A DNA stretch of 64,000 bases from Fimbriimonas sp. (GTDB lineage Bacteria > Armatimonadota > Fimbriimonadia > Fimbriimonadales > Fimbriimonadaceae): contig JARXAE010000030.1 in NCBI GenBank assembly GCA_029866005.1, forward strand, positions 1 through 64,000. The letters are read 5' to 3'. Of the stretch, positions 19,689-37,879 are shown one piece after another. How positions within the stretch are numbered: position 1 is the first letter of the stretch; each line of letters begins with the position of its first letter. A program made the position numbers and the translations under genes. Below the pieces are notes generated by a model that searched no databases, was not told the origin of the DNA, and saw only the letters and a list, made by a program, of their open reading frames with translations.

Positions 19689-21965
19689 TTAGCGGATAAA
19701 GTTTTTGACGTTGGCGGTTGCCTTCATCGTGACGGTCTGTGGGTTAGGCACGTTCGATTGCGGATAGTTGCGAATCGTTACCAGAATCTGCATCAGCTGC
19801 CTCGTGTCGTAGTCGACTCGGACGGTGTCGGTTGTATTTGTGAACTGGAATCGATACGCCACACGGATTCGACCAGGAACGTCGAAAGTTGTTCCCGCTG
19901 CGACCCCTCGAATTCGCATTGTTGCGGGAATCGGGACTTCTGGATTAGAACATAGCTGAACATAGCCGACTTTGTAACGAGGTTGAACGATCGCGCTCAC
20001 AAAGCTTGCCGGGGTGTAATTGGGAGGAGGTACGGGAAGTCCTAGCGCAGTGTAACCTGCAACTGAAGGCTCAGCAAGATTCGTGTAGTTGATCCTGTAC
20101 TCGTTCGGTCCTGGCTCCTTGTTCACCCGTCGATAGCGAACTTCATAACCGTAGTTCGCGCCCGGATTCTGATCTGGACCCCAAATCTCTTCGGAACTTG
20201 GAACGATTGAAGCATTCGGGAAAAGGACGAGGGGACTCAGTGTCCTATCGCCTTGGGGGACAAGTCGAAGATCAATGAAGCGATGCGCTCCACCTACTTC
20301 GCCGAACTGAGAGGGCACTCCGTTCCGGTTAGCCTGGGCATCTGCCCAAACCTTGTTAAACACCCGATTCATGTTAAATCGATCGAAAGCAGCGTCGTAG
20401 AACGGGGCAGCGTCAAACGTACCTGCGGCAACTGCGGGATCAGTCGTCGGAGTCAATGCAGAATCTGTGACCGCCCAACCACTTGCGGTATTGCCTTGAG
20501 CGGCAATCTGCGGGAGGTTATTCGGGTTCAAATCGTCTGGCGAAAAGATGTTCGCCGCCGAATTCGGATTCTGGCCCACATTTCCATGATCTCCAATTGC
20601 AAAGCTAGCGCTGATGCGACCCTTTTCCTGATTAGCCGTGAACGGCTTAAACACTAGGGAGCCAGGACTGATACTTGCCGCTGCAGAAGTCGACTGGGTG
20701 AACGGGTAGCGAGCCGTGGCGTCTCCGGCGGTGTATTTCCGCCTGAACAGGTCGGCATAACTGGTGACGTTGAAAAGCTCTGTTCCCGAACCTGGTGTGG
20801 TATCGGCAACTCCGGTGGTTGGGTCAAAAAAGAAGATTCTGAGCTGATCAGCATCGGTTCTTGCAATCTGATACGGCTGAGGCGGCGCGTAGGTGCCAGG
20901 GTACGAGCGAACGGTGAGGCTGCTCCAAGCTCCATACTTTCCGACGTAAGTTTCCGAACCAAGTTGCGCCGCACCTTCGGTTTCGGTACCCAAAGGCATC
21001 GTCATGGCGGCATCAGAGCTATCGCCCTCAACGTGCGAGGGCCGGAACTGAATCAACGGAGTAATGCGCGGTGAGTAGAGGCCGCCGTTATCATTCAGCT
21101 TGACCAGCCGGCTGGTCTTATCGATCACGGGCTGAATCATGTCGTACCGACTCAACTCGGTAACGATCTGAGCTTTGTTCAACCAGTTGCGAATTCGATC
21201 AGCCTTCGCGTCGTTGTTTACCGGGGCACCTGCAGGAGCACCCGTAGCGAGGAAGAAGTTCGGGTCGTTGTAGTTCGGCGTTCGTCCGGTTCCATCGGCG
21301 GGGTCCACGTCGAAAAATGCTGCATTGACAGTAGGGTTGCCGGCGACTCGAACCACTGGTTCAACTTCGGCCATGTATAAGACGAAAAGATTATCTCGCC
21401 CGCCGGATTGTGGCGTCAGGATGCCTTCGAAAGGGTTCGTGTAATTCGTGAACGGGTCGCGCAGACCGATCCAATAGCGTCGAATCGTTGTTCCTGGTGC
21501 AAGAGGAAGCTGAACTTGCCCCTTTGGCGCTCGGAGCGTAGGATCCTCCTTTCCAGTGTTCGGATCAATGAAGCCACCACCGACGCCTCGATTTCCGACT
21601 TTGGCCGGAAGAACGATGTCGAGCTTCGAATAGTTCATGCCGACCGTAACCCATGAGCTACCTGTCGGGTTGATTACGGTTCCATTCTCCAGAACACCTC
21701 TGGCGGGAGTTTGGACAACAATGCTGACCCGACCGCCAACACCCTCAACGTCTTTAACACCTACAGACTCACTGATTTCGCGCGTCAAGCGCTCGGTAAG
21801 GAGTCGGGCTTTATCCTGAGCATCGGCAAATGCTTGCGCCGTGCGAGTTGCCCGGAAACTCTCAAACATCGGGACAACGATGATGCTGAGCAAGATCGTC
21901 GAGATCGCCATCACGGTGATCAGCTCAATCAAGGTAAAGCCGCGGTTACGTTGGGTTTGTCTCAT
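19689..21965 (-). CDS. Oversized PilW/GspJ-like minor pilin (758 aa)
   Basis: I chose the ATG at 21963-21965. It gives the short basic leader MRQTQRNRG followed by FTLIELITVMAISTILLSII, a canonical prepilin cleavage site (Gly-Phe) with Glu5. It also overlaps the previous stop in an ATGA junction. An upstream start at 22028 would add residues inside the previous gene. PilW and GspJ are usually 200-300 aa; this protein carries about 720 residues after the helix, beta-rich and Pro/Asn/Gly-rich, with no domain I recognise. Minor pilins of this class form the priming complex at the filament tip. PilD, encoded upstream at 25023, would process it. Confidence 0.75.
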   Translation of the reverse strand: MRQTQRNRGFTLIELITVMAISTILLSIIVVPMFESFRATRTAQAFADAQDKARLLTERLTREISESVGVKDVEGVGGRVSIVVQTPARGVLENGTVINPTGSSWVTVGMNYSKLDIVLPAKVGNRGVGGGFIDPNTGKEDPTLRAPKGQVQLPLAPGTTIRRYWIGLRDPFTNYTNPFEGILTPQSGGRDNLFVLYMAEVEPVVRVAGNPTVNAAFFDVDPADGTGRTPNYNDPNFFLATGAPAGAPVNNDAKADRIRNWLNKAQIVTELSRYDMIQPVIDKTSRLVKLNDNGGLYSPRITPLIQFRPSHVEGDSSDAAMTMPLGTETEGAAQLGSETYVGKYGAWSSLTVRSYPGTYAPPQPYQIARTDADQLRIFFFDPTTGVADTTPGSGTELFNVTSYADLFRRKYTAGDATARYPFTQSTSAAASISPGSLVFKPFTANQEKGRISASFAIGDHGNVGQNPNSAANIFSPDDLNPNNLPQIAAQGNTASGWAVTDSALTPTTDPAVAAGTFDAAPFYDAAFDRFNMNRVFNKVWADAQANRNGVPSQFGEVGGAHRFIDLRLVPQGDRTLSPLVLFPNASIVPSSEEIWGPDQNPGANYGYEVRYRRVNKEPGPNEYRINYTNLAEPSVAGYTALGLPVPPPNYTPASFVSAIVQPRYKVGYVQLCSNPEVPIPATMRIRGVAAGTTFDVPGRIRVAYRFQFTNTTDTVRVDYDTRQLMQILVTIRNYPQSNVPNPQTVTMKATANVKNFIR

Positions 21966-23986
21966 CGGGCAGATTCTCCTTGATGTAGGTAGGTTTCTTT
22001 CGTCGTGATGTTCCATTGCTGGGACCATTGGTTAAATCCTGAAGTGAGGTTCGCGGCAGTATTCGTTGTCAGATTGAACTTTGCATTGTTAAAGAACACC
22101 TTGACGAGAACAGACACGCCCTGAACGTTGCTCACTGAGTACGGCAGCGAGGTTGGACCTTGGTCCGCAAAGATTCCGATTGCGCCTGGCACGAGGTCAC
22201 GAATGTCGATCGAAGGCATCGGCGTTGCAATTGTGTCCGCTCCTGGTCGCTGCAAAACGCTGAACTCAGCTCCCTCAAGAATCGCTTGCTGACCACCGAG
22301 GATGTAACGAATTCGCCCGATCGAGACCTTTCTGTTCGTATCCATTCTTGGGAAATAAATCCGAGTTGGAACTCCGGCCAAAGTTGGATCGGAGCCACCA
22401 ACATAGAACTGACCTGCGCCTGGTATGCCAAGTGTCGAAGTGTAGTTCGACGGGTTTCGGGTGACCTGCACCGCCCACTCGTCTTTGCCCATAAAGTAGC
22501 AACGAATGACTCGGCCCGTGAGGTTGGTTGGAACCACCGTTCCGTCGAGCATGACGATGTTCTGAGTCAAACCATTCGCGTCGTTGTTGTCGATGTCAAA
22601 GAAGGTGACAGTTCCCGAGGACTTATCAACCCTGAGTGATGGAACTCCAGCAACGCTCTCCATGATCTGTCCGCCCGTGGCAACGTCAATCGCAAGGAAG
22701 TTGTCGGCGACGTCAGTATTGGTATTCGCAACTGTTGTGTTGTCAGCAACAAAGACGTCTTCCATGCTGTCGTTAGGGATATCGCTTCCACCGATGACTG
22801 CGGCGTGGGAAAGACCTTGTCGTCCGTCTGCACCCGCGACTGTATTTGTTTTGAGGGAAGATATTGGAAGCCGAATCGTCTTTGCAAGACCAGCCGGCGA
22901 GCTTTGCGTGATTCGGAAATCCTCGTGCAAGATTCTCCAATCGCGGACATCGTAATCAACGCGGGCAACGTATGGTCGTCGAGACTGTCCCGCTCGCTCT
23001 TCATACCGACCAGCAAGGACTGGATTCAGCAGCAGCATCCCAATGCGATCATTCAGAAGCTTGTAGGTGAATGGGGCATTGCCCGTGAATGCGGTCGCAT
23101 TTGGAATCCGCACAAATCTGCGTGCGATTCGCACTGAAGTCAGTTCGACACTCACCAAGGTTTCACCACCACCCAGCACCCCTGGGATGGCGCCCACAGG
23201 AACCGTGACGTAACCTGGAACCGGAGTCGCGGGAATCACAACGGTAGATCTGAACACAGGCCGTCGGACAATGTTTCCAGAATTGTTGACCATTGCGGTT
23301 AAGGAGACGCGATACTCGCCAGCAGTGGCAGCGGGGAAAGCAATCTCAGCCGCGCCAGTTGTTGGATTATTCACAAGGAACTCGTACTCTCGCAGTCCAA
23401 CATAGTCGCTCGTCTCTCGAACAAGACGATAGGACATATCTCGACCATAAACATGAACAGTGTCGGTTGGGACGCCGATGTCACGAGCAATCGGACCCCG
23501 CTCAACGACTAGCAATGAACCAAATGGAGCCGTTCCGGATGTCGGGTCAGTTGTGAGCGCTCGCGGCGAGGAGATAACGTGGGTCTCGCCAATGATGCGA
23601 CGGTAAGAGTTTGCACCCGAAATCAGCTGCCAATCTCTTCCAGCTTCTGGAACTTGACCGGTGGCCGAGATACCAGTACCGGAAGGAGCATAAGCATTGA
23701 TCAGTTTGGTTGGATCAGTCTGCGGATCAAAGAATCCGGAGTTAACGTAGGTAATTGGAAGCACGGCCTCCGGAACCAAGCCAGGGTTTGACTTGAGAGA
23801 TTCAATTTCAGCACGAGCCAGCGCCTGCGCCATCGAAACGTTCCGAGTTCTCGCGAGAATCTTGATACCACCCGGAAAAATCTGGGCGATCGCTAGAATT
23901 CCGATCAAAAACACCACGATTACAACGAGCACTTCGACAAGCGTTGTGCCACGGCGGAATCGACGAAAAGCAGGAGGGTTATGCAT
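21962..23986 (-). CDS. Oversized PilV/GspI-like minor pilin (674 aa)
   Basis: The ATG at 23984-23986 is preferred over an in-frame TTG four codons upstream, because GAGG lies six bases before the ATG. The leader MHNPPAFRRFRRG precedes TTLVEVLVVIVVFLIGILAI, so cleavage after Gly leaves Thr1 and Glu5. The T-L-V-E-V form is typical of PilV/GspI. The usual length is 120-180 aa; about 640 residues follow the helix here, with strand-rich stretches and no recognisable enzyme motif. It is flanked by a GspG/H-like pilin (upstream) and the PilW-like gene (4-base overlap), which reproduces the H-I-J-K order of secretion-system tip pseudopilins. Confidence 0.75.
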   Translation of the reverse strand: MHNPPAFRRFRRGTTLVEVLVVIVVFLIGILAIAQIFPGGIKILARTRNVSMAQALARAEIESLKSNPGLVPEAVLPITYVNSGFFDPQTDPTKLINAYAPSGTGISATGQVPEAGRDWQLISGANSYRRIIGETHVISSPRALTTDPTSGTAPFGSLLVVERGPIARDIGVPTDTVHVYGRDMSYRLVRETSDYVGLREYEFLVNNPTTGAAEIAFPAATAGEYRVSLTAMVNNSGNIVRRPVFRSTVVIPATPVPGYVTVPVGAIPGVLGGGETLVSVELTSVRIARRFVRIPNATAFTGNAPFTYKLLNDRIGMLLLNPVLAGRYEERAGQSRRPYVARVDYDVRDWRILHEDFRITQSSPAGLAKTIRLPISSLKTNTVAGADGRQGLSHAAVIGGSDIPNDSMEDVFVADNTTVANTNTDVADNFLAIDVATGGQIMESVAGVPSLRVDKSSGTVTFFDIDNNDANGLTQNIVMLDGTVVPTNLTGRVIRCYFMGKDEWAVQVTRNPSNYTSTLGIPGAGQFYVGGSDPTLAGVPTRIYFPRMDTNRKVSIGRIRYILGGQQAILEGAEFSVLQRPGADTIATPMPSIDIRDLVPGAIGIFADQGPTSLPYSVSNVQGVSVLVKVFFNNAKFNLTTNTAANLTSGFNQWSQQWNITTKETYLHQGESAR

Positions 23987-24005
23987 CAAAAGCCTCAAAT
24001 CGAAA

Positions 24006-24887
24006 TCAGAAAGTGAATCGCCAAGATCGCTCAGACATTAGCTTGGAGTCAACCGGTCGAGCGGCTCCGCCGAGTTGAAGAACCATGTCCTTGCTTCCGC
24101 CGTTTGTCAGCGCGCCGTTGTTGTAGTCGCGGAAGAACGAGTTCCAAGTAACGACAGTCGTTTCAGGCGGCTCGGTATAACCAAGCTGGCGGGGGTCATC
24201 GTTAACACTGCCGGTCGTCGTTCCAAGAAGGGTCCAGAACGGGGTGTAGTGAACTTCGTAGTAGATTTGCCCGCCGATTCGAACCTGAGCAACGTCGTAA
24301 CCACTCAGCGCATAGAATCGACCAACATCCGTGGTTGCGCTAGCTGCATTGGCGCCGATCGAAGGCGTTATGGTCCTATCCTGGTAGTAATACTGAACTG
24401 TTGCCGCGCTGTAGCTTGAACCAAATGCCTGTCGGGCGTTAGGAATGTCATCAGCGTTGTTAATTACCCCATCTCCGTTGGTGTCAACAATTGGAGCAGA
24501 ACCCGTTGGTCGGTTATCAACCTGAGGCCAGATTCCTGGAACCATCAGATCTCGAGCAACACGATTCTGGGAAGGACGTAACGTCTCGAGAGAGTCAATT
24601 CTCTTGGGAAAGAGCGCGCCGCGCACCTGATCTGCCGGAACCACGGTGACGCCCCCTGCATACTCGTAAGGCGAGATGTAGCCGAGCAGTGCAGGCGGAT
24701 ACCCACCTTGATCATCTCGGTAGAGTTGCAGTGCATTGCGAATCGAGTTCATCGCAGACATATCGCCACTCTTATAAGCGTTCAGTTTGACTCGAGCAAA
24801 GACCGGGAAGATGATTCCCGCAAGGATCGCAATGATTGCGATCACTACCAATAGCTCAATGAGTGTGAATGCGCGTTTTCGATTCAT
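24006..24887 (-). CDS. Type IV pilin-like protein, GspG/GspH class (293 aa)
   Basis: It starts MNRKRA and then FTLIELLVVIAIIAILAGII, a textbook prepilin helix with Glu5. The residue before the cleavage point is Ala rather than Gly, a variant common in the large pilin families of Planctomycetota and Armatimonadota. The N-terminal helix continues through a GspG-like segment (MNSIRNALQLYRDDQGGYPP, about residues 43-62) with the Tyr/Pro pattern of major pseudopilins. A globular domain of about 230 residues with several predicted strands follows. It is the smallest pilin in this locus, so it could be the major subunit or the GspH-like member of a tip set; sequence alone does not decide. It lies first in the pilin series after a 135-base gap that may hold a promoter, although I see no convincing -35/-10 pair there. 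Confidence 0.85.
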   Translation of the reverse strand: MNRKRAFTLIELLVVIAIIAILAGIIFPVFARVKLNAYKSGDMSAMNSIRNALQLYRDDQGGYPPALLGYISPYEYAGGVTVVPADQVRGALFPKRIDSLETLRPSQNRVARDLMVPGIWPQVDNRPTGSAPIVDTNGDGVINNADDIPNARQAFGSSYSAATVQYYYQDRTITPSIGANAASATTDVGRFYALSGYDVAQVRIGGQIYYEVHYTPFWTLLGTTTGSVNDDPRQLGYTEPPETTVVTWNSFFRDYNNGALTNGGSKDMVLQLGGAARPVDSKLMSERSWRFTF

Positions 24888-25022: not shown

Positions 25023-26060
25023 TTATGGCAAGAAAGCGGGTCCTTGCATTGTTCTTAGGTATTCCGTCCACTTGTCGAGAAGATCAGTCTTGAATAGGAT
25101 ACAGACTAATGCCCCAATTGCCAAGTAGGGTCCGAATGGAATCGTGCTTAAACTAGGTTCCCAATCATCATCTTCAACGCTAAAGTCTTCGACGGGATAT
25201 CCAAACTTGGTGTAAACCTGCGGAAACCAGATGGCGAGGATATCAATGCAGAAAAGATAACTGATTCCCAAAATAAAGAGATCCTTGATGGATTCTGGTT
25301 TGTAATCTACTTCTTCAATTGCTCCTGTTGCTTTGTCGACCTCACTCTGGGCAGCCTTGCCCTTCCGAGCAGCAATCGCCATGAAGAGAAGGCCGAAGAC
25401 CAGACCTGCAACGACAGCTATACCAACACTAAAAACTGTCAGGACTCCGCCAATCAGCGCGCCAACACCACGCATCATCTTGATGTCGCCATGCCCCATC
25501 GCGTCCTTCCCGAAGGCAACCCGGCCTAAAAATGCAATTCCGAAGATGATTCCCCAGCCGACGAGGTACCCAACGAAGCAGTCGCGCATGGTGCCCTGGA
25601 CGAGATGAAAGACGACCCCGACAAGTAGCAAGAAAGCGTTTATCTCATCAGGGATGATGTAGTGCTCTCCATCGATGAATATAATCGAGACAAGTGCAGC
25701 CGCCCCAATTGCGTAGGCACAGCCATACTTCCATGCTTCGTTGCCGCCCTCATAGCAGAAGTAGCGGTACCAGATCGCCGCCCACAGACAACCTGTCACG
25801 AGCTCGACCCAGAAGTATCGACTTGGAACGGCAATGCCGCAATGACGACACTTCCCTTTCGATGTCAGCCAGCTGAACAGGGGAATGAGATCAGGTCCGC
25901 CAAGCTGATTCTTGCAGTTGGGGCAAAAGCTGTTACGGGGGTTCCCCAAAGACATCCGCCTAGGAAGGCGGTAGATCACGACGTTAAGGAAAGAACCGAT
26001 GGTGGCACCCACCATCAGCCCGACAATCCATGTCCATTCAGGAAAAATCCCGGCACCCAT
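25023..26060 (-). CDS. pilD: Prepilin peptidase (A24 aspartyl protease, PilD/GspO)
   Basis: 345 aa, polytopic inner-membrane enzyme that cleaves prepilin leaders and N-methylates the new terminus. The N-terminal motif GSFLNVVIYRLPRR is at 22-35. The four zinc cysteines are present (CPNC at 46-49, CRHC at 71-74). The catalytic aspartates are in FIDGEHYIIPDEIN (Asp130 and nearby) and MGHGDIKMM (Asp192). The closing PFGPYLAIGAL motif is at 308-318. It is about 60-90 residues longer than most relatives because of a charged, probably cytoplasmic insert around 231-305. The ATG at 26058-26060 lies in the loop of a terminator-like hairpin (26043-26074) and has no Shine-Dalgarno site. The next Met (residue 16) would shorten the first membrane helix, so I keep this start. 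Transcription order is pilB-pilT-pilC-pilD. Confidence 0.93.
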   Translation of the reverse strand: MGAGIFPEWTWIVGLMVGATIGSFLNVVIYRLPRRMSLGNPRNSFCPNCKNQLGGPDLIPLFSWLTSKGKCRHCGIAVPSRYFWVELVTGCLWAAIWYRYFCYEGGNEAWKYGCAYAIGAAALVSIIFIDGEHYIIPDEINAFLLLVGVVFHLVQGTMRDCFVGYLVGWGIIFGIAFLGRVAFGKDAMGHGDIKMMRGVGALIGGVLTVFSVGIAVVAGLVFGLLFMAIAARKGKAAQSEVDKATGAIEEVDYKPESIKDLFILGISYLFCIDILAIWFPQVYTKFGYPVEDFSVEDDDWEPSLSTIPFGPYLAIGALVCILFKTDLLDKWTEYLRTMQGPAFLP

Positions 26061-26074
26061 AAGAGTTGCCGGGA
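26043..26074 (-). terminator. Terminator-like hairpin enclosing the pilD start codon
   Basis: On the minus strand the arm TCCCGGCA (26067-26074), an 11-base loop and the arm TGCCGGGA (26048-26055) are followed directly by TTTTT (26043-26047). This has the full form of a Rho-independent terminator. It lies 23 bases after the pilC stop. The loop contains the pilD ATG (26058-26060), and the T tract encodes part of codons 5-6. It may attenuate pilD relative to pilBTC. Confidence 0.65.
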
Positions 26075-26097
26075 TGGTACCTGTTTAGAGCCGATGA

Positions 26098-27327
26098 CTA
26101 CTCGTCTGCGCCGCCCGAAGAAAGCGAGGAAATGACTTTAACTAGAGGAAGGAACATCGAGATAACGATGAATCCGACCATAAATCCGAGACCAACAATC
26201 ATGATTGGCTCAAGAGCCGCAGTGAGCGATGCAAGAGCCGCTTCAACTTCGTCCTCGTAAAAGTCGGCGATCTTCTGGAGCATGAAGTCGAGAGATCCCG
26301 ACTCCTCACCAATTCCGATCATGTGAACGACCATGGGTGGGAACAACTTGGATTCTTCGAGCGGATCTCCGATTCGATCTCCTTCACGGATTCGGGCGCG
26401 GGCTTCGAGAAGCGCGTCCGACATGATCGTGTTGCCAACCGTTCCGGCAACCGTCTCCATAGCCTGAAGAATTGGAACACCCGAGGTAAGAAGGGTTCCC
26501 ATCGTTCGGCTGAAACGAGCCATGCAGATCTTGTGGTGAAGCTTTCCAAAAACAGGAACCTTCAACCGAACCCGGTCCATAACACGTCGCCCAAAGCGGG
26601 TGCTAGTGAACAGCTTGTTTGCGAAGAAAAGTATGACCAGAGAGATCGCAACGATATATCCCTTGTTAACAAGGATGTCCGAAACATCGATCAGGAACTT
26701 TGTGGGAGCCGGAAGGTCGTCAGCCTTGAGTCCAAGGTCAACAAGAATCGCCGCCCATTGAGGAACGAACCAGTAGACGAGGAAGCCCGTAATGCCGAGG
26801 GACATGACAAGAACCAGAACTGGATAGGTTAGAGCCGACTTAACCTTTCGGCGAAGTTCGACGTCTTTTTCAAGGAAGTGGCTGAGTCGCTGGAGGGATT
26901 CCTCCAAGACACCACCGATTTCACCAGCTTTGATAAGACCAATAAACAGTGAACTGAACGCCTTAGGGTGCCGCTGCATGGCACGGCTGAGAGATTCACC
27001 ACCTTCAACGCGGGTTCCGAGATCGGCAATGATCTTCTTAAGTCTAGGGTTCTGCGTTTGACGACCAAGAACGTCCAGACAGCGAACCAACGAAACACCA
27101 GCATCAACCATCGTTGAGAACTGACGGCACCAGACAGAAAGGTCTGTGAGCTTGACTTTTCCAGGCGATTTTGACTTCGGGCTTTTCGCCTTGATCATCG
27201 TCAATTCGGTAATCACGAACCCTTGTTCGGTAAACCTTGACCGTAGAAGCTCTTCGCTTTCTGCGTCGGCCGTGCCTTTTTGGATGGAGCCCATGGCGTC
27301 CTTGAATGTGTAGCTGAAGATTGGCAT
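26098..27327 (-). CDS. pilC: PilC/GspF-family pilus platform protein
   Basis: 409 aa. MPIFSYTFKDAMGSIQKGTA is the usual GspF/PilC opening (about 1-20). Two T2SSF domains follow (about 75-195 and 275-400), each with helical bundles such as FSTMVDAGVSLVRCLDVL and FSRTMGTLLTSGVPILQAME. Three membrane helices are near 168-190, 218-240 and 375-400 (LEPIMIVGLGFMVGFIVISM). PilC sits in the inner membrane and transmits rotation or strokes of PilB and PilT to the growing filament. The ATG has GGGAG six bases upstream. Length and motifs are normal for the family. It lies between pilT and pilD. Confidence 0.95.
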   Translation of the reverse strand: MPIFSYTFKDAMGSIQKGTADAESEELLRSRFTEQGFVITELTMIKAKSPKSKSPGKVKLTDLSVWCRQFSTMVDAGVSLVRCLDVLGRQTQNPRLKKIIADLGTRVEGGESLSRAMQRHPKAFSSLFIGLIKAGEIGGVLEESLQRLSHFLEKDVELRRKVKSALTYPVLVLVMSLGITGFLVYWFVPQWAAILVDLGLKADDLPAPTKFLIDVSDILVNKGYIVAISLVILFFANKLFTSTRFGRRVMDRVRLKVPVFGKLHHKICMARFSRTMGTLLTSGVPILQAMETVAGTVGNTIMSDALLEARARIREGDRIGDPLEESKLFPPMVVHMIGIGEESGSLDFMLQKIADFYEDEVEAALASLTAALEPIMIVGLGFMVGFIVISMFLPLVKVISSLSSGGADE

Positions 27328-27357: not shown

Positions 27358-28671
27358 TTATCGTCGAATTTGTTGGGTTGTTGGACTCGTTCCGGGACCC
27401 TGTGCCGTTGCGAGCATCTTTTTGAGCTCTTCAACATTGCTACAGCGAGCCATCACGTCCTCAAGTTTGACCCAGCCCTTCATGTAAAGATCACGCAAGC
27501 ACTGATCCATCGTAAACATTCCCATTTGGGCACTTGTCTGGATCATCGAAGTGATCTGGTGCGACTTTGCTTCCCGGATAAGGTTCCGGATTGCTGAAGA
27601 TGCGATCATGACTTCGTTCGCGGGAACCCGGCCCTTGCCGCTTGCGTGGGGTAGCAACTGTTGCGAAATGATGGCAATGAGGTTATTGGAGAGCTGAACT
27701 CGAATCTGCTCTTGTTGCCCCGGAGGGAAAACGTCGACCATTCGGTCAACCGACTCGGCGGCAGAGTTAGTGTGAAGTGTTGCGAAGACCAAGTGACCGG
27801 TTTCCGCCGCAGTAACCGCGAGCGAAATCGTTTCCACGTCGCGCATTTCACCGACGAGCAGAATGTCCGGATCCTCACGAAGACTTGCGCGAAGGGCGTT
27901 GTTGAAGCTCTTGGTGTCCATGCCAAGCTCACGCTGGTTGATGACGCATAGCTTGTGCTCATGCAGATACTCGATCGGATCTTCGATCGTAATAATGTGA
28001 TGAGCATGATTCATGTTGATGTGGTTAATCATCGCCGCGAGCGACGTTGATTTTCCAGAACCAGTAGGACCCGTGACCAAGATGAGACCTCGAGGCTTTT
28101 CGACCAAGGTCTTAAGAATGACCGGGAGTCGCAACTCTTCAACCGTTGGAATCTTGGACGCGATTAATCGAAATGCAGCTGCAACCGCGCCGCGATCCTT
28201 GTACATGTTGACTCGGAATCGAGCTCGAGCCGTCGGACCGTCCGGAACTCGTTGACTGAATGGAATCGGCAACGAGTAGGAGAAGTCGAGTTCGTGAATC
28301 GTTTCAAATTTCTGAATATTGTCGTCAGAGATGATTTCATACAGCATTCGCTGAATGATTTCAGGGCTAAATTTATCGTAATTCAGCCTCTTCAGTCCAC
28401 CGTCGTGTCTGACGACCGGGGGGCTCGCCGCACAGATGTGAAGGTCCGACGAGTTGAGATCAACAACGATGTTGAGGAGCTCGTCGATGTGCAGATCATC
28501 TACAGGCTGACGAGGACCAAGCGGCTTGTCATCGCCCAAGATTCCCGAGATGGTCTGAACGCGTTCGCGCCAAGCTTCTGGGTCTTGCTGATTCATGTTG
28601 CCCTGCGCCATTGGGTTCAAGCGCTGAGGGGGCATGCCGGGTTGATTCTGTCGAGTCGGATCGTTCTGCAT
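27358..28671 (-). CDS. pilT: PilT pilus retraction ATPase
   Basis: 437 aa cytoplasmic hexameric ATPase that depolymerises pili. The Walker A motif GPTGSGKST is at 201-209, the Asp box around ITIEDPIEYLHEHK (227-240), Walker B at DILLVGEMRD (269-278), and the His box near TGHLVFATLHTN. The PilT-specific AIRNLIREAK signature, needed for retraction, is at 360-369. Core PilT begins at about residue 62 (IDELLNIVVDLNSSDLHI). The first 60 residues are an added Gln/Pro/Asn-rich segment that standard PilT (about 345 aa) lacks, and there is a short extra C-terminal tail. The ATG at 28669-28671 is preceded by a purine-rich stretch. It lies 26 bases downstream of pilB. Confidence 0.95.
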   Translation of the reverse strand: MQNDPTRQNQPGMPPQRLNPMAQGNMNQQDPEAWRERVQTISGILGDDKPLGPRQPVDDLHIDELLNIVVDLNSSDLHICAASPPVVRHDGGLKRLNYDKFSPEIIQRMLYEIISDDNIQKFETIHELDFSYSLPIPFSQRVPDGPTARARFRVNMYKDRGAVAAAFRLIASKIPTVEELRLPVILKTLVEKPRGLILVTGPTGSGKSTSLAAMINHINMNHAHHIITIEDPIEYLHEHKLCVINQRELGMDTKSFNNALRASLREDPDILLVGEMRDVETISLAVTAAETGHLVFATLHTNSAAESVDRMVDVFPPGQQEQIRVQLSNNLIAIISQQLLPHASGKGRVPANEVMIASSAIRNLIREAKSHQITSMIQTSAQMGMFTMDQCLRDLYMKGWVKLEDVMARCSNVEELKKMLATAQGPGTSPTTQQIRR

Positions 28672-28697: not shown

Positions 28698-30461
28698 TTA
28701 GTAGCCTGCGGTGAAGACAACTCGCATAACTTCTTCAGGAGTTGTGATTCCGCTAAGAACCTTGACGAGCCCATCCTCGCGAAGTTCCTTCATTCCGTTC
28801 GCTTTAGCCGCCTCTTTAAGGTCGTTCAACGGAGCACGGCGAACAACAAGCTCAGCAAGCTCGGAGTTCATCGTCATCAGCTCGTGGAATCCAGTTCGCC
28901 CCTTGTAACCGGTCATTCGGTTATTCTCCGCCGGAATTCCTCGGTACAACGTAACCAGAGCCTCCGGATCGGTGACATTAAAGCCGAATCGGCGCAGGTC
29001 CATCTGAGTAACGTCGTAAGGCTCCTTGTTCGCCGAGTCAATTCGGCGGCCGAGTCGCTGGGCAAGAACACCAACGATCGTCGCAGCGATCAAGTAAGGC
29101 TCAACACCCATGTCGATCATACGAAGAGTAGCGGAAGGAGCGTCGTTCGTGTGAAGCGTGGAAAGAACCATGTGACCCGTCAGAGACGACTCAATCGCGA
29201 TTTCTGCCGTTTCAAGGTCTCGCATCTCACCGACCATGATGATGTCGGGGTCTTGTCGAAGGTAAGCGCGAAGCGCAGTTGCAAACGTCAGACCTGCCTT
29301 TCGGTTCATCTGAACCTGAGCAATACCGTTGAGCTGGTACTCAATCGGGTCTTCAGCAGTGATGATGTTGACGCCGACCGTATTGAGGATGTTGAGAACC
29401 GAATACTGCGTGGTGGTCTTCCCCGATCCCGTAGGACCCGTACAGAGGAACATACCGTTCGGCTGACTGACAAGCTCTTCAATCTTAAGCTGGTTCTCTT
29501 CCGTAAATCCAATGCTATCCAGACCGAGCAAGACGCTGCTCTTATCCAGAATACGCATAACGATCTTTTCGCCGAACGGCGTTGGGATCGAGCTAACACG
29601 AAGGTCGATTTCTTTGACTCCGTGGCGAACCTCGATACGACCATCTTGAGGAATACGTCGCTCAGCGATGTTCATGTCCGCCATGATCTTGTAGCGGCTG
29701 ATCAGCGGAGCCATCAGGTTCTTTGGAACCGTCATCGCTTCCATCAAAACACCGTCAATTCGATATCTGACGCGAATCGCTCGGCTACCTGGCTCAACGT
29801 GGATGTCCGAAGCCCGATCGGTAATCGCCTGCTGAATAATCGCACTGGCAAGTTTGATGATCGGCGCGGCGTCTGCGGCGGCTTCATCTTCTCGGTTCCC
29901 GATGTCCTCGAAATCGGATCCTTGCTTAACGCCCGCTTCGGCCATGATCTGGGCAAAGTTTCGGCTCGCTGGAGCGTTCGCGGCAGCAGCGGCGGCGGCG
30001 GGAGTGTTGTCTACCGGAGTCGACGACGAAGCAGCGTAATACTTCTTAATCGCATCTTCAATTGCCCCAGGAACGGCAAGAACCGGAACAACTCGGCAAC
30101 CCGAAGCGAGACGCAGATCATCGATCGCTGCGATGTTGCTAGAGTTCTTCATCGCAACATAAAGCGTTTGACCGTCTTTTCGAACTGGAATAGCGGAGTG
30201 GTTTTTGACGATCCGCTCAGGCACAACGTTTAGTGCACTGGAATCGATGCTCATTCGATCAAGGTCGGCAAAGCCAAGCCCCATCTCCTGCGCCTTCCCT
30301 TGAAGCACCTCTCGTTCACCAGCAAACCCCAACTGAACGATGACTTTGTCAATCGGCGAATTGGTTTGTTGCGACATCTTAGTCGCCTCATTAGCTTGAT
30401 CCGCGGACATGAAGCCCTTCGAAATCAACCACTGTAACATCGGAACGCGTTGCGCAGCCAT
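28698..30461 (-). CDS. pilB: PilB pilus extension ATPase (cysteine-poor variant)
   Basis: 587 aa. An N-terminal MshEN/T2SSE_N domain (about 5-140) is followed by an Ala-rich linker (154-165) and the ATPase core. Walker [11 protein letters not shown], is at 341-350. The Asp box is around ITAEDPIEYQLNG, Walker B at DIIMVGEMRD (406-415), and the His box at TGHMVLSTLHTND. PilB drives filament assembly together with PilC. The usual C-terminal tetracysteine zinc site is missing: the stretches at 472-482 (RRIDSANKEPY) and 506-521 (before GYKGRTG) hold no Cys. The N-terminal domain also lacks the clear RLG-type c-di-GMP motif. It is the first gene of the pilBTCD run. Confidence 0.95.
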   Translation of the reverse strand: MAAQRVPMLQWLISKGFMSADQANEATKMSQQTNSPIDKVIVQLGFAGEREVLQGKAQEMGLGFADLDRMSIDSSALNVVPERIVKNHSAIPVRKDGQTLYVAMKNSSNIAAIDDLRLASGCRVVPVLAVPGAIEDAIKKYYAASSSTPVDNTPAAAAAAANAPASRNFAQIMAEAGVKQGSDFEDIGNREDEAAADAAPIIKLASAIIQQAITDRASDIHVEPGSRAIRVRYRIDGVLMEAMTVPKNLMAPLISRYKIMADMNIAERRIPQDGRIEVRHGVKEIDLRVSSIPTPFGEKIVMRILDKSSVLLGLDSIGFTEENQLKIEELVSQPNGMFLCTGPTGSGKTTTQYSVLNILNTVGVNIITAEDPIEYQLNGIAQVQMNRKAGLTFATALRAYLRQDPDIIMVGEMRDLETAEIAIESSLTGHMVLSTLHTNDAPSATLRMIDMGVEPYLIAATIVGVLAQRLGRRIDSANKEPYDVTQMDLRRFGFNVTDPEALVTLYRGIPAENNRMTGYKGRTGFHELMTMNSELAELVVRRAPLNDLKEAAKANGMKELREDGLVKVLSGITTPEEVMRVVFTAGY

Positions 30462-30508
30462 ATTTGAACTCTCAAGCAGACTCTCTCTCTCCCAGAGCGA
30501 GTCAGGGG

Positions 30509-30514
30509 ATTGTA
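30509..30514 (-). promoter_or_regulatory. Possible -10 box upstream of pilB
   Basis: On the minus strand TACAAT lies 48 bases before the pilB ATG. No good -35 is present at 16-18 bases. A run of alternating GA (30479-30493) separates it from the start codon and may serve as a ribosome-entry region. Confidence 0.35.
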
Positions 30515-34608: not shown

Positions 34609-35190
34609 ATGGGAATTCCTTACGTCATCGAACAAACAGCACGCGGCGAGCGAAGTTACGACATCTGGTCGAGGCTTCTCAAAGACCGAATCATCTTCTT
34701 GGGAACCGAGGTTGACGACTATATCGCCAATCTCTTGGTCGCCCAACTCTTGTTCCTCGAAAAGGAAGATCCGGACAAGGATATTGATTTCTACATCAAC
34801 TCCCCCGGCGGATCAGTCACGGCTGGCTTGGCCATCTATGACTGTATGCAGCACATCAAGTGCGATGTCGCGACGATTTGCGTTGGTTCGGCAGCTTCAA
34901 TGGGAGCAGTTTTGCTCGCAGGTGGCGCGGCTGGCAAGCGTTATGCATTAAAGCATTCGCGCATCATGATCCACCAGGTTTCGGCTGGCTTCCGAGGAAC
35001 TGCAGCAGACATCAATGTTCAAGCAGCGGAGATCAACCGGATGATGGATTCCCTTATGGGAATTCTTAGTCACCATACCGGTAAATCTGAGGAGCAGGTG
35101 CGGAAGGATTGTGACCGAGACTACTTTATGTCGAGTCCGCTAGCCGTTGAATACGGTTTGATCGACAAGGTCTTGGAACGAGCTCCGTAA
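34609..35190 (+). CDS. clpP: ATP-dependent Clp protease proteolytic subunit
   Basis: 193 aa, the normal length when started at the ATG at 34609; a longer frame begins at 34537 but adds 24 non-conserved residues. The start gives [20 protein letters not shown], the classical ClpP N terminus. The catalytic Ser97 is in GSAASMGA and His122 in RIMIHQ; the Asp is expected around residue 170. [10 protein letters not shown] is at 61-70. ClpP forms the tetradecameric peptidase that degrades substrates unfolded by ClpX, encoded 27 bases downstream. Ribosome-site candidates GGAG and AGG lie 8-15 bases before the ATG. Confidence 0.97.
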
Positions 35191-37805: not shown

Positions 37806-37879
37806 TGCCCATTCGTCTAATGGCAGGACGACGGTTTCTGGTACCGTTAATCGTGGTTCGAATCCACGATGGGCAGCCA
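37806..37879 (+). tRNA. tRNA-Gln (anticodon CTG)
   Basis: 74 bases including the encoded CCA. The acceptor stem TGCCCAT pairs with ATGGGCA, and the discriminator is G. The anticodon stem ACGGT/ACCGT encloses the loop TTCTGGT, giving anticodon CTG (reads CAG). The T arm has TCGTG/CACGA around GGTTCGAATCC. The D arm contains AATGGCAGGAC. All four helices form. Confidence 0.95.

Follow-up and report, generated by a model that had tools for sequence, protein, structure and literature searches.

A terminator-like hairpin behind pilC has probably become the start region of pilD in one clade of Fimbriimonas relatives

Results

The pilD start codon lies in the loop of a terminator-like hairpin

In the window analysed here, a 64,000-nt stretch of a Fimbriimonas sp. 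genome (G000 in our numbering), the gene for the prepilin peptidase PilD very probably begins inside a GC-rich hairpin that stands directly behind pilC. The explanation that we favour, and in which we have good though not full confidence, is that a terminator-like hairpin of the pilBTC unit lost the spacer that had set it apart from pilD and became the start region of that gene. The genes concerned follow one another on the minus strand in the order pilB, pilT, pilC, pilD and were assigned by domain matches:

28698..30461, minus strand: pilB-type ATPase (T2SSE with MshEN domain)
27358..28671, minus strand: pilT-type ATPase (T2SSE)
26098..27327, minus strand: pilC (T2SSF), its stop codon at 26098-26100 and its 3' end marked by the hairpin
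25023..26060, minus strand: pilD, prepilin peptidase (A24_N_bact and Peptidase_A24)

Two neighbouring regions drew our attention. At the head of the unit (30438-30514, minus strand), a TACAAT box lies 47 nt upstream of the pilB ATG in a conserved leader that contains a GACTC/GAGTC inverted repeat, and 46 nt at the pilB start (30483-30438) are identical across three species. Downstream of pilD lie two very large minus-strand ORFs, 19689-22028 (779 aa) and 21962-23998 (678 aa), both with N-terminal prepilin methylation motifs, the second of them just below the Pfam cut-off; their start regions are conserved at 57/65 and 58/65 positions in the trio of genomes compared below.

At the pilC-pilD junction, reading of the sequence and a pattern search gave, on the minus strand from 26075 to 26047, ATCCCGGCA ACTCTTATGGG TGCCGGGAT, followed by TTTTCC. 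The elements are:

26047..26075, minus strand: inverted repeat with a 9-bp ATCCCGGCA/TGCCGGGAT stem and an 11-nt loop (sequence, fold and relatives)
26058..26060, minus strand: ATG in the loop, start codon of pilD and sole in-frame NTG before Phe6
26043..26047, minus strand: T-run, formed by the end of the pilD Ile5 codon ATT and the Phe6 codon TTT (frame reading)

The hairpin starts 22 nt after the pilC stop, and 37 nt separate that stop from the pilD ATG, so that the two genes do not overlap. In pilD the 3' arm is read as MGAGI, and the Ile-Phe codons provide the T-run. In this genome no in-frame NTG codon other than the ATG at 26060 lies between the preceding in-frame stop codon and Phe6; in one close relative (G018) two extra GTG codons, 23 and 25 codons before Phe6, lie upstream inside the end of pilC. 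The initial annotation had placed the ATG in the loop of a terminator-like hairpin and had seen no Shine-Dalgarno site, and both descriptions hold: the stem can be counted as 8 bp followed by T5 or as 9 bp followed by T4, and there is no SD4 motif 3-12 nt upstream of the ATG. The missing Shine-Dalgarno site is nevertheless a weak argument, because many starts in this genome have none.

The hairpin is predicted to be stable. Its energy is -16.9 in an in-house stacking model, which also gave the other hairpin energies (E) below, and 1 of 100 shuffles is as stable; two calculations put the stem at about -17 to -20 kcal/mol, and the fold of 101 nt has a z of -2.79, with 1 of 200 shuffles equally good. 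In the minimum-energy fold a bulged A and three further pairs close the loop down to a UUAU tetraloop, leaving the A and U of the AUG unpaired and its G paired. Such a start is rare in the sample that we used for start statistics (the window plus 1.1 Mb of the same genome, 815 genes called by an in-house codon-usage script, start positions approximate). Only 2 of 814 starts in this 1.16 Mb, pilD included, fall within the loop of a hairpin with E <= -12, and we suspect that the second (C16) is miscalled, because a further ATG lies just beyond its hairpin. A start-region fold of -26 kcal/mol or lower is likewise seen at 2 of 814 called starts, pilD being one, and 4 of 814, again with pilD, are at or below the accessibility of the pilD start region. 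Above the gathering score, Rfam matched nothing at the hairpin and only a tRNA (37806-37876) in the window. A simple terminator scan, limited to loops of 3-8 nt, did not return this 11-nt-loop hairpin; with 19 hits against a shuffle mean of 18.6, the scan carries no weight.

The hairpin follows pilC across relatives

A comparison of 58 pilC-pilD junctions shows that the hairpin belongs to pilC. A hairpin with E <= -12 is present in 44 of the 58, a count that leaves out loci judged duplicates of our G genomes as well as L128 (partial) and L129-L132, and in which the junctions are related by descent and not independent (for instance L087/G030, L109/G022, L114/L117 and L123/L124). Of the 45 junctions with a spacer above 15 nt, 44 have a strong hairpin behind pilC, the exception being L100. 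In the other 13 of the 14 hairpin-less junctions, pilC and pilD nearly touch, with 2-15 nt from the stop to the Phe6 codon. Some genomes gave no usable junction: the N-terminus is missing in G052, no match was obtained in G016 and G060, the local search gave nothing in G054 and G038 and no pilD in G039, and in G014 and G015 the two genes are not adjacent. A hairpin at every operon junction is ruled out, such structures being rare between pilT and pilC (4/31) and between pilB and pilT (3/26); these controls came only from loci with longer flanks and were searched in windows extended by a further 30 nt on either side, so that hairpins were more likely to be detected there.

The distances tell the same story. 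From the pilC stop to the hairpin they range over 3-34 nt (median 19, sd 6.1), and from the hairpin to the pilD Phe6 codon over 1-112 nt (median 49.5, sd 26.4), the value of 1 nt belonging to the three genomes discussed in the next section. The sequence of the hairpin varies widely among species while its position after the pilC stop stays constant. Where pilD is elsewhere in the genome, the pilC hairpin is still present in 4 of 4 cases, 9-19 nt past the stop, and three of these have clear T-runs; conversely, a strong hairpin precedes just 3 of 26 pilD loci at which no adjacent pilC was found in the DNA covered, two of the three being near-copies; the upstream DNA covered was no more than 200-300 nt for some of these loci, and none was counted as a junction. 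Behind 36 of the 44 hairpins stands a T-rich tail (at least 4 T within 9 nt once terminal A-T and G-T pairs are removed), as compared with 14.8% of random 9-mers. Because its position tracks the pilC stop, because it recurs without an adjacent pilD and because of these T-rich tails, the hairpin is placed as the 3' end of the pilBTC unit and is probably an intrinsic terminator. That pilBTC transcripts end here, as the initial annotation proposed, agrees with this placement. The check that it suggested, for the same hairpin in relatives, gives a divided result: nearly all junctions with a spacer have a hairpin of different sequence behind pilC, and the core sequence itself is confined to 3 of 20 genomes of the genus.

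A further alternative is that the inverted repeat is an operator recognised on DNA. It is a perfect 9-bp palindrome with half-sites 20 bp apart, as one might expect of such a site; the exact repeat nonetheless occurs a single time in the 2.8-Mb genome by pattern search, with no further copy at fewer than 3 mismatches and so no regulon, and across relatives its place follows the pilC stop while the sequence changes freely. We regard an operator as very improbable.

Two observations lie to the side of this comparison. In the sister family f2 (for example G041, G055 and G056), the pilC stop stands very near the pilD start or shares bases with it and there is no hairpin, and the peptidase is therefore probably coupled to the motor operon there. 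In the related loci L116 and L119, where no pilC was found beside pilD, a possible upstream ATG lies in a hairpin loop (E -16.1 and -12.3) 33 nt before the pilD Phe6 codon, with an alternative GTG start downstream of it.

One clade lacks the spacer between hairpin and pilD

In the window's genome and in G018 and G001 there is no such spacer, and 1 nt stands between the hairpin and the Phe codon. This fused state is confined to one clade: in a midpoint-rooted PilD tree (32 proteins that passed length filters of 51 tried, G010 not among them), the trio groups with support 100/99 and is nested among lineages that have the hairpin plus a spacer. The hairpin core, searched with up to 3 mismatches, occurs in 3 of the 20 genomes of the genus that were covered, the window's own genome among them. 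In G002, G003, G009 and G010, pilD starts at the codon aligned to Ile5 of the window's protein, with 18-23 nt from the hairpin to the Phe6 codon; an SD4 motif precedes pilD in G003 and G009 and is absent in G002 and G010. The simplest history is that the spacer and the old start codon were lost once and that the ATG of the loop took over.

The exact agreement of these four starts with Ile5 raises another reading, in which the true start is still the ATT at 26048-26046 (position 5), aligned to the NTG of the relatives, and the loop ATG is unused. ATT start codons are very rare, however, inspection of the sequence showed neither a Shine-Dalgarno motif nor a -10 box placed for this ATT, and the loop ATG is kept in all three fused genomes. 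Very little probability attaches to an ATT start in our judgement.

The nucleotide sequence of the fused region is under strong constraint, as the alignment of the trio makes clear:

26017..26075, minus strand: 59-nt block identical in G000, G018 and G001 (trio alignment)

No longer run of identity occurs in the 19,001 aligned positions of these genomes, whose fourfold-degenerate sites differ at 0.51-0.56 in pilC and 0.55-0.64 in pilD, near saturation. We rejected conservation alone as proof of the hairpin, since several other start regions of the trio are as conserved or nearly so: 63 of 65 positions are identical at pilD, 63 at the gene at 34609, 62 at the gene at 24887 and 60 at pilB, and two other 62-nt windows are equally conserved (61/62). 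What distinguishes pilD from the operon-internal pilT and pilC is the part upstream of the start, in which 23 of 25 nt are conserved as against 9 at pilT and 10 at pilC (the only two clean comparators), a pattern that would fit either a hairpin or a promoter. Covariation within the trio is impossible, no stem base being variable.

Taken together, these comparisons suggest the following course of events. The old feature of the group would be a terminator-like hairpin at the 3' end of pilBTC, about 20 nt past the pilC stop. In the ancestor of the trio, the spacer between hairpin and pilD, with the old start codon and any ribosome-binding site, would have been lost once; the 3' arm would then have become the first pilD codons (MGAGI), the Ile-Phe codons would have come to serve as the T-run, and the ATG of the loop would have become the start. 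The hairpin may end a share of pilBTC transcripts, and PilD may hence be produced apart from the motor proteins and in smaller amounts, from read-through or short-leader RNA.

The fused hairpin would terminate only in part

The initial annotation also proposed that most pilBTC transcripts could stop at the hairpin. The d-score of the fused hairpin is -13.3 where the usual cut-off is 0, and its T-run is just T4-5 followed by CC. By this score the fused hairpin would be a weak terminator, and termination could be correspondingly weak. The d-score exceeds 0 in 20 of the 44 pilC-end hairpins. Short T-runs may be normal in this genome, because tails at convergent gene ends average 3.3 T in 8; strong hairpins are found at 91 of 262 such ends (where a hairpin between two convergent genes may count for both) versus 29 of 290 junctions with gaps below 40 nt. 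Some termination is likely, and partial termination is our best reading of these predictions.

The negative d-scores of the remaining 24 of the 44 hairpins, and three hairpins whose stem is followed by 9 nt without a single T (L117, G027 and L114), could also mean that the structure is a 3'-end stabiliser or processing site of the pilBTC mRNA and no terminator at all. We think this unlikely, given that T-rich tails are found behind most of the set and that the hairpins of G009, G036, L107 and L115, together with those of G014, G015 and L121 where pilD is not adjacent, resemble intrinsic terminators.

Two ways in which pilD could be translated

If the hairpin lets some transcripts pass, read-through pilBTCD RNA could be translated from the loop ATG, with the stem throttling PilD to a fixed ratio to the motor proteins. 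The low ratio of peptidase to motor proteins that had been proposed requires translation of this kind. The unpaired A and U of the AUG in the predicted fold, the lack of any other NTG start before Phe6 or of a Shine-Dalgarno site in this genome, and a stem that is unchanged despite near-saturated silent divergence all speak for it. On the other hand, a stem of this stability should strongly impair standard initiation by a rule reportedly general since the work on the MS2 coat hairpin, and the 37-nt gap leaves the two genes without overlap. Output from read-through would be low, because the start region is among the least accessible of the 814. We consider loop-gated translation possible but doubtful.

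A second route would be a promoter of pilD's own within the hairpin region. A -10-like TANNNT box peaks 6 nt before starts in this genome (66 of 814 starts versus a background of about 8 per position), and the consensus of these leaderless-type boxes in the window plus 1.1 Mb of G000 is GGTAAACT, resembling GG-TAAACT. Read from sequence, the peak is a mark of leaderless genes, and absence of a Shine-Dalgarno motif is ordinary here. At pilD itself the candidate is weaker:

26074..26081, minus strand: weak -10-like box GGTACCAT (GGTACTAT in G018 and G001), a hypothetical promoter (box score and spacing)

No box lies about 6 nt before the pilD ATG; the nearest, GGTACCAT, is 13 nt away, overlaps the first two stem bases and scores 5.0-5.9 against 11.7 for the consensus. 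In the proposed arrangement, GGTAC(C/T)AT would be the -10 box and the A at 26067 the RNA start, 7 nt before the ATG and the last base of the 5' arm; such a near-leaderless mRNA could not form the hairpin, which would exist in pilBTC RNA only.

Several points favour this promoter. Leaderless-type boxes are common in the genome; in the congeners G004, G013 and G019 a box (PWM >= 7) lies 9-10 nt before pilD, past the pilC hairpin, and G011, G014 and G015 have one where pilC is not adjacent, in total 6 of 64 loci against 0.2 expected. GGTACNAT is kept in G002, G003 and G010, and the 25 nt upstream of pilD are conserved as described above. Against it, beyond the low score, stand the 13-nt spacing, which is not enriched (4 of 814 starts at this score versus a background of 3.5), the lack of a visible -35 and of conservation further upstream, and the 58 of 64 loci without such a box. 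A bare TANNNT 6-9 nt before the pilD start is also found in G005, G007, G012, G025 and L092. All in all an internal promoter is conceivable, and we would sooner expect it to be absent than present.

More speculative is a nested element for exit and entry, in which the same 30 bp end one transcript with a terminator hairpin and start the next. If this were true, the pilD RNA would begin where the 5' arm meets the loop; the hairpin that ends pilBTC transcripts could then not form in pilD mRNA, and geometry alone would keep the two messages apart.

Discussion

The hairpin resembles two known kinds of element at once, as far as its sequence goes: the intrinsic terminator and the start-codon hairpin. 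With intrinsic terminators it shares the GC-rich stem, a candidate T-run on the 3' side, a constant position behind the unit's final gene and, in relatives, T-rich tails; it differs in that its 3' arm and T-run double as the opening codons of the following gene, that its loop holds a start codon and that the T-run of the fused form is only 4-5 long. With the MS2 coat-gene hairpin it shares a start codon inside a stem-loop, placed there at pilD by the predicted fold, whose stability can set translation, whereas the MS2 hairpin carries a partial Shine-Dalgarno and the pilD hairpin has none within 3-12 nt of the ATG (PMC9894550). Unlike the MS2 hairpin, the pilD hairpin seems to be derived from a terminator.

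Leaderless genes that have a -10 box next to the ORF are described in Actinobacteria and Deinococcus-Thermus (PMC3160421; PMC12340547), and the string 'armatimon' does not occur in either text. The same architecture is seen at many genes here and at pilD of some congeners, the window's pilD differing in its weak box and its 13-nt distance instead of 6. Judged by titles and the beginnings of abstracts, no paper retrieved was on the topic of leaderless genes in Armatimonadetes. Among the matches listed, and as far as their entries go, none described a terminator hairpin that holds the start codon of the next gene, and none dealt with a terminator between pilC and the prepilin peptidase gene pilD. 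In another study, disruption of presumed hairpins upstream of a restriction gene made no significant difference (PMC2997769), a result that we take as a warning against reading function from predicted hairpins.

The junction described here would be a case, apparently of single origin, in which a terminator-like hairpin has become the region where translation of the following gene starts, and looser arrangements, with the hairpin 15-112 nt from the pilD Phe6 codon, persist in living relatives. Almost every junction with a spacer in this group of bacteria has a hairpin between the motor genes and the prepilin peptidase gene, and the dosage of peptidase relative to motor is therefore open to test.
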